Below are positions 2,393-11,550 of a DNA stretch of 12,267 nucleotides, piece after piece. The stretch comes from Chthoniobacterales bacterium. GTDB taxonomy: Bacteria > Verrucomicrobiota > Verrucomicrobiia > Chthoniobacterales > UBA10450. The notes under the pieces were generated by a model that searched no databases, had not been told where the DNA came from, and saw only the letters and a list, made by a program, of their open reading frames with translations. Made by a program: the position numbers and the translations under genes. The stretch spans positions 1 through 12,267 of the forward strand of contig JACCZQ010000068.1 in the NCBI GenBank assembly GCA_013695905.1, in the 5' to 3' direction. How positions within the stretch are numbered: position 1 is the first letter of the stretch; each line of letters starts with the position of its first letter.

Positions 2393-3481
2393 ATGGTGGG
2401 CGAGCAGAGCGTTAGCGAAAGGGAGGCGAGGGAGCGCTGGACCGGTGTGTTGGTGTTGATCGATCAGAGCCCGATGCGCGCGGGGGCCGGTGCTGATTGC
2501 TCCGCGGCGATGGGGCGGCTGGAGGTGGCGCGCTCCGCCTGGCATCGCTTCGAGCGGGAGGATAAGCCGGGCTTTGTCCGCTGGCGGGCGCGGGAGTTCG
2601 GGCCGCTACTCAGCGAACTGCGCGATGTGGAGGTGCAGATCCGCGACCACGAGACGCTGGTGCATGAGGTGGAGATGGAGATGCGGCGCGGGTTCTATGA
2701 TGCGCACAGCGCTTATCAGCGGGTGCTGTTTCGCCGAGAAAATCCGGCGGCGGCCGGGGAGGAGCCGAAGCCGCGCCGTCGCGAGGAAGCAGGTGCGGAA
2801 CGGAAGCTGAGCGAGTTTGAGCAGGAGGCGCTGTTTCAGGATTGGGTGCAGAAATTCATGGGCACTAATCCGGACAAGCTCGATGACGAGGCGTACTCGA
2901 CCACGTTCGAGGCTTTCAAGACGCACATGTTCCGCAGTGCTCCACCGGAAATGCCGCGAACGCAGAATTTCCGGAAGGCGGAAGTGGAGCGACGCGCGCG
3001 TGACGAAGAAGAGGATTGGCCGACGGAGGATTCGGTCGATGCGCGGGTGAAGGAGCTTTATCGATTGCTGGTGCGGCGGCTGCATCCGGATCTGCGCGCC
3101 GATGGAAACGTGGCGGTATCGGCGCTCTGGCATGAGGTGCAGGAGGCGTATGCGGCGACCGATATCGCGCAGCTGGAGATCCTGCTGGCGCTCAGCGATA
3201 TCAAATCGGAGCGGTTCAGCGAGCAGACAAGCGTCTCACAAATGCGTGCGCTGCTCGGGGAACTGGAGCGGGCCCTGTTCGCATTGGAAGACAGTCTGCG
3301 GCAGGCGCGGAATGACGACGCCTGGGATTTTGCACGATCAGGTGCAGGTGGCGGCCTCCGGCGGCGGGTCGAGTGCGAGCTGCAGCAGAATCTCCGAATG
3401 CGTTCAGGTCGGCTGCAGCTGCTGCGCCAAACGATCGACGAATGGTCGCGGCCGCAGCAGCTAAGATCGGTGACACGATAA
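2393..3481 (+). CDS. J-domain-containing protein (DnaJ-like co-chaperone domain, coiled-coil N-terminal part)
   Basis: The 362-residue product from ATG 2393 has a charged, helix-rich N-terminal region (WHRFEREDKPGFVRWRAREFG, then EVQIRDHETLVHEVEMEM at about residues 80-97). A low-complexity Arg/Glu linker follows near 120-140. A compact J-domain-like segment comes next, VKELYRLLVRRLHPDL, with the HPD signature at residues 231-233 and the helix LWHEVQEAYAATDIAQLEILLAL after it. HPD is the motif by which J-domain proteins stimulate the Hsp70 (DnaK) ATPase. There is no zinc-finger or substrate-binding DnaJ region, so this is a J-domain-only type whose target is unknown. The frame is open back to ATG 2273, but the extra 40 residues look non-coding. 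I prefer 2393, although no clear Shine-Dalgarno supports either start. Its upstream region faces the truncated nucleotidyltransferase. Confidence 0.72.
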   Translation: MVGEQSVSEREARERWTGVLVLIDQSPMRAGAGADCSAAMGRLEVARSAWHRFEREDKPGFVRWRAREFGPLLSELRDVEVQIRDHETLVHEVEMEMRRGFYDAHSAYQRVLFRRENPAAAGEEPKPRRREEAGAERKLSEFEQEALFQDWVQKFMGTNPDKLDDEAYSTTFEAFKTHMFRSAPPEMPRTQNFRKAEVERRARDEEEDWPTEDSVDARVKELYRLLVRRLHPDLRADGNVAVSALWHEVQEAYAATDIAQLEILLALSDIKSERFSEQTSVSQMRALLGELERALFALEDSLRQARNDDAWDFARSGAGGGLRRRVECELQQNLRMRSGRLQLLRQTIDEWSRPQQLRSVTR

Positions 3482-3519
3482 ACATTTGGCTCGTGTTCGG
3501 CCGCTGCGGTTCGGTAAAA

Positions 3520-3533
3520 AGGGACGTTTCCCT
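3520..3533. promoter_or_regulatory. small palindrome in the preA leader
   Basis: AGGGA-CGTT-TCCCT forms a 5-bp stem with a 4-base loop, 16 bases upstream of the preA ATG and 38 bases after the J-domain stop codon. It is too short to be a convincing terminator and is not followed by a T-run. It could be an operator half or chance. I see no confident -35/-10 pair in the 68-base gap. Confidence 0.2.
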
Positions 3534-3549
3534 AACAGACAAAACTACC

Positions 3550-4680
3550 ATGCCCACTCTAGCTACTACCGTTGATGGCCTGAAACTTCCCAACCCCTTC
3601 GTGATCGGCTCCGGCCCTCCGGGAACGAACATGAACGTCATCAACAAGGCGTTCAAAGAAGGCTGGGGCGCGGTGATTGCAAAGACCGTTAGCCTCGATG
3701 CGAGCAAGGTGGTGAACGTCACCCCGCGCTACGCGAAGCTCTACGCGAACGACGGGAAGGAAGTGATCGGCTGGGAAAACATCGAGCTGATCAGCGACCG
3801 CAAGTTTTCGATTTGGATCGAAGAGTTCAAGAAGATCAAAGACGCGTATCCGGAGGGAATTCTCATCGCCTCGATCATGGAGGAGTTCTCGAAGGATGCG
3901 TGGGTGGAAATTGTCGAGCGCTGTCAGGATGCGGGCGTCGATGCGTTCGAGTGTAATTTCTCCTGCCCGCATGGATTGCCGGAGCGAAAGATGGGCGCGG
4001 CGATGGGCCAGGTGCCGGAGATTCTCGAAGAAGTCTGCGGCTGGGTGATGAGCGCGGCGAAGAAGCCGGTCTGGGCGAAGATGACGCCAAACGTGACGCG
4101 TATCCAGGACCCGAGCCGCGCCTCATTGCGCGCCGGCTGTCAGGGATTGGCCGCGATCAACACGATCCGCAGTGTGATGGGCGTGAATCTCGACACGCTC
4201 CGGCCGGAGCCGACGGTGGAGGGTTACACCACGCCCGGCGGTTACTCGTGCCGCGCGGTGAAACCGATCGCGCTCCGCATGGTGATGGAGATCGCGACGA
4301 TGATCCGCTCGGAATTCCCGGGACGTTCGCTCTCCGGCATCGGCGGCGTGGAGACTGGTCGCGACGCGGCGGAGTTCATCCTCCTCGGTTCCGACACGGT
4401 GCAGGTCTGCACCGGCGTGATGAAATTCGGCTACGCGCACGTGAGACAGATGTGCGACGAGCTGCTCCAGTTCATGGAGAAGCACAACTTCGAGACGCTC
4501 TCCGATTTTAAAGGGAAGAGTCTCGATTACTTCACCACGCACGCGGAACTGGTGCGGATGCAAACCAAGCGGAAAGCCTCGCAAGCTGCGGCCGCCGAAG
4601 AGAAGAAGGTGGTGAAAGCGGACGATCAGTGGAGCGGGGATGAGTTTGTGAAGCAGTCGAATGATCTGGCGAGGAATTGA
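3550..4680 (+). CDS. preA: PreA-type dihydropyrimidine dehydrogenase catalytic subunit, no ferredoxin tail
   Basis: The product belongs to the FMN-dependent dihydroorotate/dihydropyrimidine dehydrogenase TIM-barrel family. It would catalyse the first step of reductive pyrimidine degradation (uracil or thymine to the 5,6-dihydro form) in the cytoplasm. Visible blocks are LPNPFVIGSGPPGTN (13-27), WGAVIAKT (39-46), NFSCPHGLPERKMGAAMGQ (136-154), AKMTPN (176-181), GGYSCRAVKPIALR (230-243) and LSGIGGVE (261-268). ATG 3550 is chosen because residues from MPTLATTVDG onward match the usual N-terminus. The open frame further upstream overlaps the J-domain gene. The product is 376 residues, shorter than E. 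coli PreA (about 411), and has no CxxCxxC cluster. It ends WSGDEFVKQSNDLARN. A Met sits where mammalian enzymes have the active-site Cys of LACGQ. Electrons must come from a PreT-like partner that is not in this window. No Shine-Dalgarno is evident. Confidence 0.88.
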   Translation: MPTLATTVDGLKLPNPFVIGSGPPGTNMNVINKAFKEGWGAVIAKTVSLDASKVVNVTPRYAKLYANDGKEVIGWENIELISDRKFSIWIEEFKKIKDAYPEGILIASIMEEFSKDAWVEIVERCQDAGVDAFECNFSCPHGLPERKMGAAMGQVPEILEEVCGWVMSAAKKPVWAKMTPNVTRIQDPSRASLRAGCQGLAAINTIRSVMGVNLDTLRPEPTVEGYTTPGGYSCRAVKPIALRMVMEIATMIRSEFPGRSLSGIGGVETGRDAAEFILLGSDTVQVCTGVMKFGYAHVRQMCDELLQFMEKHNFETLSDFKGKSLDYFTTHAELVRMQTKRKASQAAAAEEKKVVKADDQWSGDEFVKQSNDLARN

Positions 4681-4693
4681 AATCCAAGGCTAT

Positions 4694-4757
4694 CAAATCC
4701 CAAGCTCCAAATCCCAAATCCCAAGGAAGTTCCAAATCCCAAGTTCCAAAGGCGGCG
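4694..4757 (+). repeat. heptamer array R1 (CAAATCC / CAAGTTC units)
   Basis: The array reads as seven-base units: CAAATCC, CAAGCTC, CAAATCC, CAAATCC, an 11-base CAAGGAAGTTC, then CAAATCC, CAAGTTC, and CAAAGGCGG running into the GC-rich linker. It begins 14 bases after the preA stop. Units abut directly with no spacers, unlike a CRISPR. All frames stay mostly open through it, which creates spurious peptides rich in PNPKSQ or WDLGFG. Confidence 0.85.
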
Positions 4758-4812
4758 GTCCGCGCGAACGGCCGGGCGAGCTATTCGGAGGCTGGTACTG
4801 CGGCGTGGCGTT
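4746..4812 (+). repeat. linker repeat L1 (direct copy of 5278-5344)
   Basis: This 67-base segment recurs at 5278-5344 with 61 of 67 identities by hand alignment and no gaps. It includes an identical 29-base stretch covering GAGCTATTCGGAGGCTGG. It follows the heptamer array in both copies, so array plus linker travel as one unit. In one frame both copies read RASYSEAGTAAW, weakly reminiscent of the GANYCEA core of the adjacent gene. Its function is unknown. Confidence 0.85.
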
Positions 4813-4840
4813 TGCAGGAGGTGCCGGAGGAGGGAGGGGA

Positions 4841-4882
4841 ATCCCAAATCCCAAGTTCCAAATCCCAAGCCCCAAGCGGCGC
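4841..4882 (+). repeat. heptamer array R2, immediately 5' of the four-helix-bundle gene
   Basis: The units are CAAATCC, CAAGTTC, CAAATCC, CAAGCCC and CAAGCGGCG. As in R1 and R3 the array closes on a GGCG-rich end. It runs into the likely start of the four-helix-bundle gene, so it forms that gene's leader. Confidence 0.8.
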
Positions 4883-4883
4883 A

Positions 4884-5234
4884 TTGTCTAGTTCGGAGCG
4901 GCCTTTTGAGCTGGAGGAGCGCACCGCTCAGTTCGGTGAAGCTGTCGTTCGGTTCTCGAAAAAGATTCCGCGCAATCCGACGAACAACCGGTTGATCGAT
5001 CAGTTGGTCGGCTGCGGCACGAGCGTGGGTGCAAATTATTGCGAGGCTGACGAGCGTGTTTCGAAGAAGGATTTCCGCAACACGATCGGCCGGTGTGTCA
5101 AGGAAGCGAAGGAGACGAAGTTCTTCCTCCGAATGATCGCCGCATCGGAGCCGACCCTCGCGACAGAAGCGCGGAAGCTATTCCAGGAAGCGCGAGAGCT
5201 GCACCTGATCTTTGCCAGCATTTACCGGAAATGA
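4884..5234 (+). CDS. four-helix-bundle protein (23S rRNA intervening-sequence / S23 family)
   Basis: The product, about 116 residues from TTG 4884, is an all-helical protein. It has FELEERTAQFGEAVVRF (helix 1), NNRLIDQLVGCGTSVGANYCEA (helix 2 with the family's GTSVGANYxEA core), KKDFRNTIGRCVKEAKETKFFLRM (helix 3) and LATEARKLFQEARELHLIFASIY (helix 4). This is the S23/TIGR02436-type family, named for ORFs inside 23S rRNA intervening sequences and structurally related to Avd, the accessory protein of diversity-generating retroelements. A molecular role is not established for most members. They tend to form basic oligomers and may bind nucleic acid. The start is uncertain. The frame is open back to TTG 4677 through the repeats, but homology begins near PFELEERT (about 4902), and there is no Shine-Dalgarno. 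Repeat arrays R2 and R3 abut both ends, and R3 starts at the stop codon. Confidence 0.82.
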   Translation: MSSSERPFELEERTAQFGEAVVRFSKKIPRNPTNNRLIDQLVGCGTSVGANYCEADERVSKKDFRNTIGRCVKEAKETKFFLRMIAASEPTLATEARKLFQEARELHLIFASIYRK

Positions 5235-5289
5235 AGTTCCAAGCCCCAAATCCCAAGGAAGTCCCAAGTCCCAAGCTCCAAAAGCGGCG
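5234..5289 (+). repeat. heptamer array R3
   Basis: After the four-helix-bundle stop (TGA 5232-5234) the sequence is GAAGTTC, CAAGCCC, CAAATCC, CAAGGAAGTCC, CAAGTCC, CAAGCTC and CAAAAGCGGCG. It has the same 11-base irregular unit (one base different) as R1 and the same orientation as R1 and R2. Confidence 0.85.
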
Positions 5290-5344
5290 GTCGGTGCAAA
5301 CGGACGGGCGAGCTATTCGGAGGCTGGTACTGCAGCGTGGCGTT
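5278..5344 (+). repeat. linker repeat L2 (direct copy of 4746-4812)
   Basis: This is the second copy of the 67-base linker, with six substitutions against L1. It joins directly to codon FFLRMI of the truncated four-helix-bundle copy. That junction removes about the first two thirds of the gene. Confidence 0.85.
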
Positions 5345-5456
5345 CTTCCTCCGCATGATCGCCGCATCTGAACCAGCGCTCGCGCCAGCAGCGCGGAAAT
5401 TATTTCAAGAAGCGAAAAAACTGCATCTGATCTTCGCGAGCATTTACCGGAAATGA
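5343..5456 (+). pseudogene. second four-helix-bundle copy, C-terminal 37 codons only
   Basis: The frame FFLRMIAASEPALAPAARKL...HLIFASIYRK-stop aligns without gaps to the last 37 codons of the complete gene (5121-5234). Thirty-two of 37 residues are identical, and both copies are 114 bases including TGA. By hand count there are 19 nucleotide differences. Eleven of the 16 altered codons are synonymous, so the copy diverged under coding constraint before it lost its 5' part. It therefore derives from another functional paralogue and not from a recent local duplication. No usable start lies nearby, so I do not expect a product. Confidence 0.85.
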
Positions 5457-5473
5457 GCTGCGCCCACCAAGGG

Positions 5474-5500
5474 TTTCGCCAGCATCTGCCGCAAATGAAC
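5474..5500 (+). repeat. third, very short remnant of the four-helix-bundle 3' end
   Basis: TTTCGCCAGCATCTGCCGC followed by AAATGAA matches the gene's final codons (CTTTGCCAGCATTTACCGG then AAATGAA, 5211-5237) at about 21 of 27 positions. It lies 17 bases after the second copy. With so few bases it could be chance, but its place in the series favours a decayed copy. Confidence 0.45.
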
Positions 5501-5502
5501 CA

Positions 5503-5570
5503 CGAGCGGCGTCTTGGGATTTGGAGCTTGGAACTTCCTTGGGATTTGGAACCTGGGATTTGGGATTTTC
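5503..5570 (-). repeat. heptamer array R4, inverted relative to R1-R3
   Basis: Read on the minus strand the units are AAAATCC, CAAATCC, CAGGTTC, CAAATCC, CAAGGAAGTTC, CAAGCTC, CAAATCC, and CAAGACGCCGC. It has the same 11-base irregular unit as R1. Positions 5528-5548 are the exact reverse complement of 4715-4735 (21 bases). The array ends 12 bases before the mmsA ribosome-binding site, so it is part of the mmsA leader and could pair with R1 in a read-through transcript. Confidence 0.85.
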
Positions 5571-5582
5571 AGCGCCGCGATT

Positions 5583-5588
5583 AAGGAG
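5583..5588 (+). promoter_or_regulatory. Shine-Dalgarno site of mmsA
   Basis: AAGGAG lies 10 bases before ATG 5599. It is the clearest ribosome-binding site in the window and fixes the mmsA start. The open frame upstream of it is only repeat sequence. Confidence 0.75.
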
Positions 5589-5598
5589 AGATCAAAAT

Positions 5599-7134
5599 AT
5601 GTCCGCCACCCTACCTACCGAACACATCACCCGCGGCACCAACGGCTCAGCGGCGCTGGAACCTTGTCCCGTGTTCATCGGCGGCGAATGGCAGGAGATC
5701 GACGGCGGGCCGGGTTTTCCCGTGCACAATCCGTCAACCGGCGAAGTCATCGCTGAAGCTCCGGCCTGCAGCGCGGAGCACGTAAACGCCGCCGTCGAAG
5801 CCGCCGCCGCTGCTTACCCCGGCTGGTGGGAAACGCCGCCGGTCGAGCGGGCGCGGGTGTTCTTCCGGTTCAAGATGTTGCTCGAAGAGAACTTCGAGGA
5901 GCTGGTGCGCTGCAACACACGCGAGCACGGCAAGACGCTCATCGAATCGCGCGGCGACGTGCGGCGCGGCATCGAGATGGTGGAGTTCGCCTGCGGAATT
6001 CCGTCGCTGCTCATGGGCGAGACGATCGAGAACATCGCGCGCGGGATTGATTGCGAAGCGATTCGGCAGCCGCTCGGGGTCTGTGTCGGCATTACGCCGT
6101 TCAACTTCCCCGCGATGGTGCCGCTCTGGATGTATCCGGTGGCGATCGTCTGCGGGAACACGTTCGTGCTCAAGCCGAGCGAGAAGGTGCCGCTCACCGC
6201 GATCAAAATCGCGCGGCTGCTGGAGCAGGCGGGGCTGCCGAAGGGTGTGTTCAACATCGTGCACGGCGGCCGCGAGTGTGTGGACGCGCTGCTCACGCAC
6301 CCAAAAGTGCGCGCGATCTCCTTTGTCGGCTCCACGCCGATCGCGAAATACATCTACGAAACCGGCACCAGCCGGAACAAGCGGGTGCAGGCGAACGGCG
6401 GCGCGAAGAACTTTGTTTTCCTCATGCCGGATGCGGATGTGGAGAACTCCACCCGCGGCGTGGTGGAGGGGGCATTTGGTTGCGCGGGCGAACGCTGCAT
6501 GGCGAGTTCGACGGCTGTGGTCATTGGCGCCGCGGCGACAGAAGTGTTGCCGGCGCTCGTCAACGCCGCGCGCGCGATCAAAGTCGGACCGACGGATCGC
6601 GATGAGCAGCCGAACATGGGCCCGGTGATCACGCGGCAGCATCGCGATCGCGTGATGGAGCTGATCGGCGCCGGCGAAAAGGAAGGCGCGAAGGTGCTTG
6701 CCGACGGTCGCGGCGCGGTGAAGACCGGCGACGGGTTTTTCCTCGGCGCGACGATTCTCGATGAAGTTCGCAGCGGCATGACTGTCGCGAACGAGGAGAT
6801 CTTCGGCCCGGTGCTAAACGTGATGCGGATGGAGGATCTCGATTCCGCGATCGAGATGGTGAACGGCTCTCCGTTCGGCAACGGTGCCTCGATTTTCACC
6901 CGCTCGGGGAAAGCCGCACGTGAGTTCAAGCACCGCATCAAGGCGGGCATGGTCGGCATCAACATTGGCGTGCCCGCGTCGATGGCGTGGTTCCCATTCA
7001 ACGGCTGGGACGATTCGTTCTTTGGCGACCTGCACATGCAAGGGCGCGAGGGTGTGCAGTTTTTCACGCAGCTGAAAGTGACGACGAGTCGCTGGTTCAG
7101 CTACGGCGAAGGCAGCATCTGGGCGGAGAAGTAG
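5599..7134 (+). CDS. mmsA: CoA-acylating (methyl)malonate-semialdehyde dehydrogenase
   Basis: This is a 511-residue aldehyde dehydrogenase of the MmsA/IolA type. It oxidises malonate semialdehyde to acetyl-CoA, or methylmalonate semialdehyde to propionyl-CoA, with NAD+, CoA and loss of CO2. Visible features are the N-terminal VFIGGEWQE (25-33), PFNFP (167-171), LKPSEKVPLT (191-200) for NAD binding, FVGST (242-246), NGGAKN (266-271), the nucleophile Cys300 in GERCMASS, and EEIFGPVLNV. The general-base Glu of ordinary ALDHs is replaced by Asn in NGGAKN, as is characteristic of the CoA-dependent MMSDH branch. Length is normal for the family. Next to preA, hydA and the aminotransferase it would finish uracil and thymine catabolism. 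Valine or inositol breakdown are alternative roles for the same enzyme, but no genes of those pathways are visible here. Confidence 0.93.
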   Translation: MSATLPTEHITRGTNGSAALEPCPVFIGGEWQEIDGGPGFPVHNPSTGEVIAEAPACSAEHVNAAVEAAAAAYPGWWETPPVERARVFFRFKMLLEENFEELVRCNTREHGKTLIESRGDVRRGIEMVEFACGIPSLLMGETIENIARGIDCEAIRQPLGVCVGITPFNFPAMVPLWMYPVAIVCGNTFVLKPSEKVPLTAIKIARLLEQAGLPKGVFNIVHGGRECVDALLTHPKVRAISFVGSTPIAKYIYETGTSRNKRVQANGGAKNFVFLMPDADVENSTRGVVEGAFGCAGERCMASSTAVVIGAAATEVLPALVNAARAIKVGPTDRDEQPNMGPVITRQHRDRVMELIGAGEKEGAKVLADGRGAVKTGDGFFLGATILDEVRSGMTVANEEIFGPVLNVMRMEDLDSAIEMVNGSPFGNGASIFTRSGKAAREFKHRIKAGMVGINIGVPASMAWFPFNGWDDSFFGDLHMQGREGVQFFTQLKVTTSRWFSYGEGSIWAEK

Positions 7135-7176: not shown

Positions 7177-7440
7177 ATGGCTCTTGCAACGATCACAAGC
7201 AAAGGCCAGATCACGATCCCGGTGGAAATCCGCACGCGTCTAAGACTTAAACCGGGGCAGGTGCTCGAATTCGATGAAGACGCTGCATTTTTGAAGGCCC
7301 ATCGCGTGATCGACGAAGCGGCAGCACGCGAGGTGATTGGTTGTGCCAAGGAAGCGCTGGCGGGGAAAACCACGGAGGAATGGATCGAGTGGCTCCGAGG
7401 GCCGGTCGAGTTGCCACCCGATGTCGCTCGCAATCGATAG
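7177..7440 (+). CDS. vapB: AbrB/MazE-type antitoxin (VapB-like)
   Basis: This 87-residue protein opens with LATITSKGQITIPVEIRTRLRLKPGQVLEFDED (from about residue 3), a swapped-hairpin AbrB/SpoVT DNA-binding domain. The C-terminal part (KEALAGKTTEEWIEWLRGP) would wrap around and neutralise the toxin. It starts at ATG 7177. The frame continues 30 bases upstream, but homology begins at MALATITSKGQ. The next gene starts 20 bases before this stop, a tight overlap typical of toxin-antitoxin pairs and suggesting translational coupling. Such antitoxins usually autoregulate their own promoter, which would have to lie in the 42-base gap after mmsA or upstream. The pair interrupts the pyrimidine gene order between mmsA and hydA. 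Confidence 0.85.
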   Translation: MALATITSKGQITIPVEIRTRLRLKPGQVLEFDEDAAFLKAHRVIDEAAAREVIGCAKEALAGKTTEEWIEWLRGPVELPPDVARNR

Positions 7441-7828
7441 CTCAGGGCTGATCGCGCTCTTCAAGGGCGAGGCAGATAGCGAGCGGTGGTTCAATCTTAT
7501 CCTTTCGCATGCGCGCAGAGAGCAATTGCTCGTTTGCGACGTGGTTTTTGCAGAGGTTGCTCCCTTCATGCCGGATTCAGACACCTTCCTGTCGCGGCTC
7601 GATGGCCTGGGTATTCGCTATGATTCCATCGCCCCGCGTAGTGCGTTCGTGGCGGGCGAGATGTACTCGCGGTATCGCCGCTCCGGTGGCCCGCGGAGTA
7701 GCCTTGTACCGGATTTTCTGATCGGCGCGCACGCGCTCCATCAGGCAGATGGTTTGCTGACCGCGGATCGCGGATACTTACGACATTATTTCAGCGATCT
7801 TCGGACCTTCCAGCCGACCGCGCTTTAG
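7421..7828 (+). CDS. vapC: VapC-like PIN-domain toxin ribonuclease
   Basis: This 135-residue PIN-domain protein starts at ATG 7421, inside the end of the antitoxin gene. The putative metal-binding acids are Asp6 (AIDSSGLIALF), Glu45 (VVFAEVAPF), Asp98 (VPDFLIGAHA) and Asp116 (LLTADRGYLRHYF), which matches the PIN arrangement of four acidic residues. Family members are Mg2+-dependent endoribonucleases that cleave tRNA or rRNA when free of antitoxin. The target cannot be read from sequence. The stop is two bases before the hydA ATG, so hydA translation may be coupled to that of the toxin. That is unusual for a catabolic gene. Confidence 0.85.
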   Translation: MSLAIDSSGLIALFKGEADSERWFNLILSHARREQLLVCDVVFAEVAPFMPDSDTFLSRLDGLGIRYDSIAPRSAFVAGEMYSRYRRSGGPRSSLVPDFLIGAHALHQADGLLTADRGYLRHYFSDLRTFQPTAL

Positions 7829-11097: not shown

Positions 11098-11550
11098 ATG
11101 ATCGTGCCGGACGCTAATCTCCTGATCTACGCCTACGACACGTCGGTGCCTTCGCACAAGGCGGCGCGTCAATGGTGGGAGAAGTGCCTCTCCGGTGATG
11201 AACCGGTCGGTCTTCCCTGGGTGGTGGTGCTTGCCTTCGTGCGCCTCACGACGCATCCGGTGCTGATGGAGCAGCCGTTCACCATCGAGGAGGCGCAGAG
11301 CGCCGTGGATGGGTGGCTGGCGCGGAGCCATGTGCAGCTGCTGCACCCTCGCACCAGCACGCTCAATCGGTTCTTCTCGCTGCTGCGCGCCGCGGGCTTG
11401 GGCGGAAATTTATCCACCGATGCCTTGATCGCCGCTCATGCTGAGGAATACGGCGCCGTCGTGCATTCCACCGACCGGGACTTCGATCGCTTTCCGCCCG
11501 TTCGTTGGCTCAACCCGATCGAGCGTAAGCCGCGAGCAAGCGTCCATTGA
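11098..11550 (+). CDS. vapC: VapC-like PIN-domain toxin ribonuclease (second module)
   Basis: This is a 150-residue PIN-domain protein with Asp5 (MIVPDANLLIYAYD), the segment VVLAFVRLTTHP, Asp108 (LSTDALIAAHAEEYG) and Asp126/Asp128 (VHSTDRDFDRF). The position that is often Glu in PIN motif II (ExxR) appears as Ala/Phe in LAFVRL. The mycobacterial VapC subgroup with SFLRLATN-like sequences shows the same pattern, so I do not take this as inactivation. It has little similarity to the first VapC beyond the fold. The expected activity is RNA cleavage held in check by the preceding antitoxin. The 59-base gap to the aminotransferase shows no convincing promoter. Confidence 0.85.
   Translation: MIVPDANLLIYAYDTSVPSHKAARQWWEKCLSGDEPVGLPWVVVLAFVRLTTHPVLMEQPFTIEEAQSAVDGWLARSHVQLLHPRTSTLNRFFSLLRAAGLGGNLSTDALIAAHAEEYGAVVHSTDRDFDRFPPVRWLNPIERKPRASVH

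Follow-up and report, generated by a model that had tools for sequence, protein, structure and literature searches.

Heptamer word arrays around an S23-type four-helix-bundle gene: a candidate small insertion element between preA and mmsA in a Chthoniobacterales bacterium

In the REP/RAYT system, a clade of RAYT (REP-associated tyrosine transposase) genes is tied to a dispersed hairpin word that also occurs as gene-less copies. MITEs are short gene-less inverted-repeat copies found in many places, and Avd, known from diversity-generating retroelements, is a pentamer. The S23-coding intervening sequences of 23S rRNA genes have been termed selfish elements, and their mobility has been proposed (PMC4990558). 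As for heptanucleotide words, GGGAATC of Xanthomonas is intergenic and often arranged in inverted pairs (70 cases in Xcc and 75 in Xac; PMC4692102) and is described by Rehm et al. as generally without association to mobile elements (PMC4692102); few inverted pairs are reported for the Nostoc word GGGGA(T/C)T. For TAACTGA, MacGregor raised the idea that a repeat-binding protein might be the mobile element (PMC4679880). By word search, ‘S23’ and ‘four helix’ are absent from the main texts of PMC4679880 and PMC4692102, and the open-access literature that we searched held no link between S23 genes and word arrays.

Our analysis of the window (the whole 12,267-nt stretch, from contig JACCZQ010000068.1) showed that the gap between preA (3373..4680, + strand, identified by PF and TIGR profile matches) and mmsA (5521..7134, + strand) is occupied by an S23-type four-helix-bundle gene set between inverted arrays of seven-letter words. 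The ORF (4677..5234, +, TTG start; conserved domain 4884-5231) scores above the cut-offs of both PF05635 (43 bits against 33.8) and TIGR02436 (60.4 bits against 24), in agreement with the first-pass annotation, which had seen a complete S23-like gene here. The outer left arm (4694..4750, +) consists of four heptamers, an 11-nt unit (AAGGAAGTTCC, 4723-4733) and two further heptamers, and the outer right arm (5513..5568, -) is inverted, with two heptamers, one 11-nt unit and four heptamers; the outer arrays form a 55-nt inverted pair that is 80% complementary (4695-4749 and 5514-5568). The listed TTG start of mmsA lies inside this right arm, and the true start, read by eye, is probably the ATG at 5599. 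Two more same-direction arrays were found at 4840..4876 (+), directly 5’ of the conserved S23 domain, and at 5226..5282 (+), so that the three same-direction arrays and one inverted array counted earlier are all present. The heptamers CAAATCC and CAAGTTC named as the units are real, but the vocabulary is wider, being of the CAARYYC type and including CAAGCTC, CAAGCCC and CAAGTCC, with the 11-nt unit in each outer arm in addition. When the stretch 4690-5572 was compared with 500 dinucleotide shuffles, its lag-7 run score (16.0) and the score of the inverted match between its two ends (33.0) were each reached by 0/500, the shuffles staying at or below 11.5 for both.

The gap also holds the decayed remains of a second copy. 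Part of the left arm with the first linker (4702..4812, +) recurs as arm plus linker at 5234..5344 (+) to form a 111-nt direct repeat, D3, with 89% identity; the array at 5226..5282 is the left arm of this second copy, and the two 67-base linkers (4746-4812 and 5278-5344) are identical at 61 of 67 bases, just as had been noted. A C-terminal S23 copy at 5342..5456 (+), also described before, makes up a second repeat, D2 (83% identical to 5120-5234), and was found by protein comparison as well (5337-5453, 82% identity to the S23 protein). D3 and D2 abut, which indicates that the second copy consists of arm, linker and gene end with the middle deleted. The earlier reading of array, linker and gene as a module that duplicates and decays is supported. 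A tiny third C-terminal remnant (FASICRK-stop, about 5475..5498, +), recognised by eye, is too short for testing. In the relative P0002 the order is linker, array, gene, as around the 4840..4876 array, and in most of 14 aligned relatives an array-like N-terminal tail is in frame (by eye). As for the inner same-direction arrays, they probably belong to tandem copies that have been partly deleted rather than being functional parts in their own right. The gap contains no transposase, as stated from the start, and profile scans of nine window ORFs revealed neither a Y1 tyrosine transposase nor a reverse transcriptase domain.

The element had been treated as a local curiosity, a view that we have to give up, as the arrangement is widespread across many bacterial phyla. 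E ≤ 0.001 was reached by 7510 of 7700 candidate proteins; PF05635 matches occur in 59 of 61 genomes of the family, and eight times in the window’s own genome. We compared the left and right flank of each gene for an inverted match, counting a score of 17 or more as a pass, and 47/115 family S23 genes with full flanks passed, compared with 3.1% of 2847 mismatched pairs and 2/61 other ORFs; 68/115 fell below the threshold, several of them with a left array only. The lag-7 test was passed by 31/115 left and 23/115 right flanks and, on the left as on the right, by 0/345 shuffles; in the S23 flanks of the family, scores at lags 6 and 8 are raised as well. A multi-phylum scan, limited to the best 80 of 522 confirmed stretches from named genomes (spanning Verrucomicrobiota, Planctomycetota, Bacteroidota, Pseudomonadota, Acidobacteriota, Clostridia and others), gave 44/73 passes versus 47/1438 controls, with the S23 genes of four family genomes present in both sets. 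Loci with less than 200 nt of flank were excluded and three rows were dropped (L008, truncated; L091, a run of N; the L004 plus-strand match, an antisense artefact), all exclusions together bringing the family set from 121 to 115 and the multi-phylum set from 80 to 73. Thirteen of 29 loci from named genomes passed against 5/812, a set that overlaps with the 73 and does not count as independent replication. Among 30 loci from the family of G061, 15 passed against 93/870 mismatched pairs, this control being raised because many loci share site and word. Plasmids carry such elements too: six of eight loci examined, out of 26 plasmid matches, had an arm score of 17 or more, and long arrays were found at a plasmid nrdB-nrdA spacer, where S23 is antisense. 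On two cyanobacterial plasmids (L233, L235), S23 elements with long arrays lie between cas6 and cas4. A phage origin was considered and set aside, since the one S23 protein compared by tblastn with 50,697 phage records found no match there.

The words are 6–9 nt long and their sequence differs between elements (for example GTGACNN at L028 and GGGGCTAG at L171), which rules out one universal word; a period of eight is frequent in flavobacterial elements. Nor does CAARYYC stand beside every S23 gene: among the stretches fetched from the window’s own genome, only the window’s S23 of the eight has it, and L001 in the same genome has inverted GTTACAA-type arrays (by eye). At the same time, word and protein are associated. 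Own arms matched each other better than they matched arms of related elements at other sites in 308/353 non-independent pairs taken without an arm-score filter; an earlier version restricted to elements with arm score of at least 15 gave 185/203, the filter favouring the result. With four duplicates removed from an earlier version of the comparison, arms were alike in 52.9% of 344 pairs of close proteins at different sites (relative score 0.6–0.8) and in 0.5–1.3% of different-site pairs with a relative score below 0.35. The reversed-sequence control for the close pairs gave 24.1%, meaning that part of the signal is base composition. Conversely, the word found in a given spacer can change from one species to another, as in the probable guaB-guaA spacers L202, L217 and L231 (gene names by eye). 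None of 97 related-element pairs matched over more than 100 nt beyond the arms, and right-side matches mostly ended well within the arm, a test that is partly circular in that ‘different sites’ were picked for their lack of similar flanks.

The same spacers are occupied differently in related genomes, with site classes assigned by eye at all three polymorphic sites. Insertion polymorphism at preA-mmsA, which the first-pass annotation had proposed looking for, was found among 11 genomes (three further 44% paralogues were set aside): three have the S23 element (window, L139, L147), three are empty (L138, L144, L146), and five have gene-less hairpins, three of them GTGAC arrays (L140, L141, L143) and two of other kinds (L142, L145). 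At the mmsA-hydantoinase spacer, again in 11 genomes, S23 is present in three (L247-L249), gene-less word arrays in five (L240, L241, L242, L246 and the degenerate L245) and a different palindrome in one (L243), and one spacer is near-empty (L244). At the third site, followed in all eight genomes of the G033 genus, the element is present in G033, the spacer is short in G026 (12 nt), G052 (20 nt) and G049 (31 nt), and the remaining four have other hairpins. A second dispersed palindrome type, with TGTCATCCCGAGC or TGTCAT-like ends, occurs in the same kind of spacer as the word-array elements; loci of this type are L013 (about 1310-1445), L145, L243, L301, L302 and L305. The window’s own mmsA-hydantoinase spacer carries a MazE-type antitoxin-like ORF (7177-7440, PF04014) and a PIN ORF (7421-7828, PF01850); in ten relatives this spacer holds nothing or is taken up by S23 elements or hairpins. 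Elsewhere in the window we noted a match to the C-terminal part of RlaP, of the RNA repair pathway DNA polymerase beta family (1773-2186, - strand; PF10127, E 4.2e-30), and a VapC-type PIN ribonuclease gene (11098-11550; TIGR00028).

Gene-less copies have multiplied in one species, G033, in a burst of copy number. Its genome gave 107 pattern matches to the CCAA-type array and at least 40 places matching a 135-nt gene-less copy (query site included), most of which hold both arms in about 115–150 nt, too short for the gene. In its sister species the same search at E ≤ 1e-10 gave at least three places in G039 and none in six genomes among the 40 candidates scored in each genome, and the CCAA-type pattern was found six times in G026, four times in G039, twice in G049 and not at all in the other four. 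We read 20 stretches, of which L298 has a different word on the right. The layout shared by the gene-less copies is four heptamers, a AGAGAAGCTCC-like 11-nt unit and more heptamers, resembling the window’s outer left arm, and their vocabulary is small (AAGCTCC 79, AAGCACC 40 and AAATTCC 10 of 143 units). The window’s own genome has a related gene-less copy, L025. No target duplication was seen by eye at the G033 copies, and between empty sites the spacer varies by several bases. Gene-less copies outnumber gene-bearing ones in G033, and their helper could be the S23-bearing copies or perhaps another enzyme in trans, so that the term non-autonomous used in the first-pass annotation may or may not apply. 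Selection for exact pairing, examined in the gene-less copies, found no support, as paired units match in 29/71 cases (0.408 versus 0.411 shuffled); this test used both arms from 18 of 23 loci, two of the 18 being other than gene-less G033 stretches, with the arms of two adjacent copies mixed in the L241 row and the vocabulary limited by the search pattern.

Genomes that have the matching S23 clade tend to be richer in arrays of its word, though not in every case. The first-pass annotation had suggested checking whether arrays occur independently of S23 genes; they do not. The three of 61 genomes with an S23 at least 78% identical to the window’s have 14, 107 and 9 CCAA array matches, compared with a median of 0 and a maximum of 9 in the other 58 (p = 8.6e-4, kinship ignored), the arrays of the S23 loci themselves being included in these counts. 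Seventeen genomes with a more distant window-type S23 (55–67% identity) have only 0–6 CCAA arrays; these relatives and the reversed-sequence control slightly weaken the case for a mobile element. For the GTGAC word, the eight genomes with the matching clade have 23, 50, 10, 44, 7, 6, 6 and 0 arrays and the other 53 a median of two (p = 1.9e-3, kinship ignored); the exceptions are G026 and G049, with 43 and 21 GTGAC arrays and no clade member at E ≤ 1e-28, and G015, with the clade and no array. A lost gene, another clade or another driver are options for the 43 arrays of G026. Among 99 genomes from the family of a Lysobacterales MAG, presumably Xanthomonadaceae, 30 have GGGAATC arrays, and PF05635 is present in 25 of these 30 versus 19 of the 69 array-free ones (p = 4.4e-7, kinship ignored), with 5/30 array genomes having no PF05635. 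A GGGAATC unit lies within 200 nt of 6/30 S23 loci in this presumed Xanthomonadaceae sample, and at least two tandem units of a looser GGGAWT-like type were found at 13/30, many of the 30 loci being in one spacer (by eye accB-accC) and hence non-independent.

We favour, with moderate confidence, the reading that the preA-mmsA gap holds a small insertion element in which an S23 gene lies between inverted word arrays and S23 aids the spread. Most elements of this kind sit in operon spacers and point the same way as the genes around them. Read-through transcripts would express S23 there, and the arms would pair into a hairpin that carries the gene in its loop, much like the S23-coding rRNA intervening sequences. 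The S23 protein, an oligomer by homology, would most likely recognise the word of its own element, perhaps with one unit per subunit, on hairpin RNA or single-stranded DNA; such recognition may help the element and its two-arm gene-less copies to spread or persist, with movement presumably passing through an RNA or single-stranded DNA intermediate and being driven by S23 rather than by another enzyme. The predicted fold (pLDDT 93.5) matches best the structures 2rld and 2gsc, then Avd among other bundles, and 2rld has five chains. Where arms were detected (129 left and 99 right of 206), they have a median of 4.3 units, which is compatible with one unit per subunit of a pentamer and is not proof of it. 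The median pI of S23 is 8.03, mildly basic only. This counts against the favoured reading, as do the G033 copies, at which no target duplication was seen, the chance-level unit pairing in gene-less copies, the 68/115 family genes below the arm threshold and the exceptions to co-occurrence.

Some of these properties would also suit a cellular role, in which the arrays are hairpins for operon RNA processing or translation coupling, S23 is an autoregulatory binder and inheritance is mainly vertical. S23 is in sense with both neighbours at 132 of 172 loci and antisense to both at 9/172 (counted where a longest-ORF rule gave each neighbour 150 aa or more, at most four duplicated loci included), and a number of S23 genes have a stop codon that shares 4 nt with the start of the following gene. 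In MFE folds the first and last 80 nt pair in all seven stretches folded, with no shuffle control. The protein is under purifying selection (median dN/dS 0.11 over 53 unsaturated family pairs, 0.13 for 23 different-site pairs), which like the sense bias also counts in favour of the insertion element. In vitro, the rRNA element of Coxiella is cleaved by RNase III (PMC4990558). We nevertheless think such a role unlikely, because the same gaps are empty or hold other words in relatives, one species has many dispersed copies, and the annotated neighbour genes vary widely.

The prevalence of gene-less copies in G033, as judged by length, and the other hairpin families found in the same gaps would suit arms that serve as ends for an unrelated transposase or other enzyme acting in trans, with S23 as a passenger or stabilising cargo, and to our knowledge S23 proteins have no catalytic site. 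Words track the S23 protein clade and clade-bearing genomes are richer in arrays, however. We rate this explanation slightly below the cellular one. Polymerase slippage has been put forward, in work that PMC4679880 and PMC4692102 cite, as the origin of abundant heptanucleotide repeats, and some of the arrays, as at L194 and L233, are of great length and purity. That slippage made the arrays at random in spacers, with the S23 link indirect, seems very improbable to us, as slippage alone yields neither matched pairs in inverted orientation nor the unit layout that the G033 copies have in common, and arm matching at S23 genes exceeds that at other ORFs.

Beyond the favoured reading of this one gap, the occurrence of gene-bearing and gene-less arrays across groups suggests a little-noticed kind of mobile element. 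A broader proposal, tentative and in our judgement somewhat short of an even chance, is that S23 proteins confer specificity on a class of mobile elements found throughout bacteria, with private heptamer arrays as their ends. Protein and word would evolve together in this class, gene-less copies would be mobilised in trans, the S23-coding rRNA intervening sequence would be one special case, and much of the surplus of heptanucleotide repeats in bacterial genomes, long without an explanation, would stem from it. Two old puzzles would then meet, namely the function of S23 or ‘four helix bundle’ proteins and the favouring of seven as the unit of spacer repeats, and S23 elements might be where the enigmatic seven-letter repeats of bacterial genomes come from. 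Should this link be real, a predicted nucleic-acid target is written on both sides of the gene for many S23 proteins, which gives many natural protein–word pairs and opens direct tests of binding specificity, of the way the elements move and of how STRR-, GGGAATC- and perhaps TAACTGA-like repeats arose. The S23-coding rRNA intervening sequences would then also find their place inside a much larger class.

Compared with the known systems, the window element shares with the heptanucleotide repeats (GGGAATC, Nostoc GGGGA(T/C)T, Beggiatoaceae TAACTGA, cyanobacterial STRR) the 7-nt unit and the intergenic position. Its likeness to Avd is one of fold, which alone shows little, since unrelated bundles such as designed bundles and copper-storage proteins score as high, and we dropped function from fold for that reason. 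Diversity-generating retroelements have a reverse transcriptase and template/variable repeats; no reverse transcriptase domain came up in the nine window ORFs scanned. Terminal inverted repeats and many gene-less copies (in G033, with L025 in the window’s own genome) recall MITEs, whereas no target duplication, a MITE feature, was seen by eye at the G033 copies, and we know of no parent transposase for window-type elements. With REP/RAYT the element has in common the pairing of a gene clade with a particular word and the presence of gene-less copies, while its gene is an S23 rather than a Y1 transposase and its repeats are heptamer arrays. The S23-coding 23S rRNA intervening sequences likewise have an S23-family ORF between stem-forming inverted repeats, and a sister element with inverted heptamer arrays (L237, Azospirillum lipoferum AZO_p2) sits inside a 23S rRNA gene; the window element, on the other hand, lies between the protein genes preA and mmsA, and window-type arms are tandem word arrays with dispersed gene-less copies of related arms. 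Judged by location, the window element falls outside the rRNA intervening sequences, and the gene it carries is no RAYT, yet its way of working seems to resemble both.
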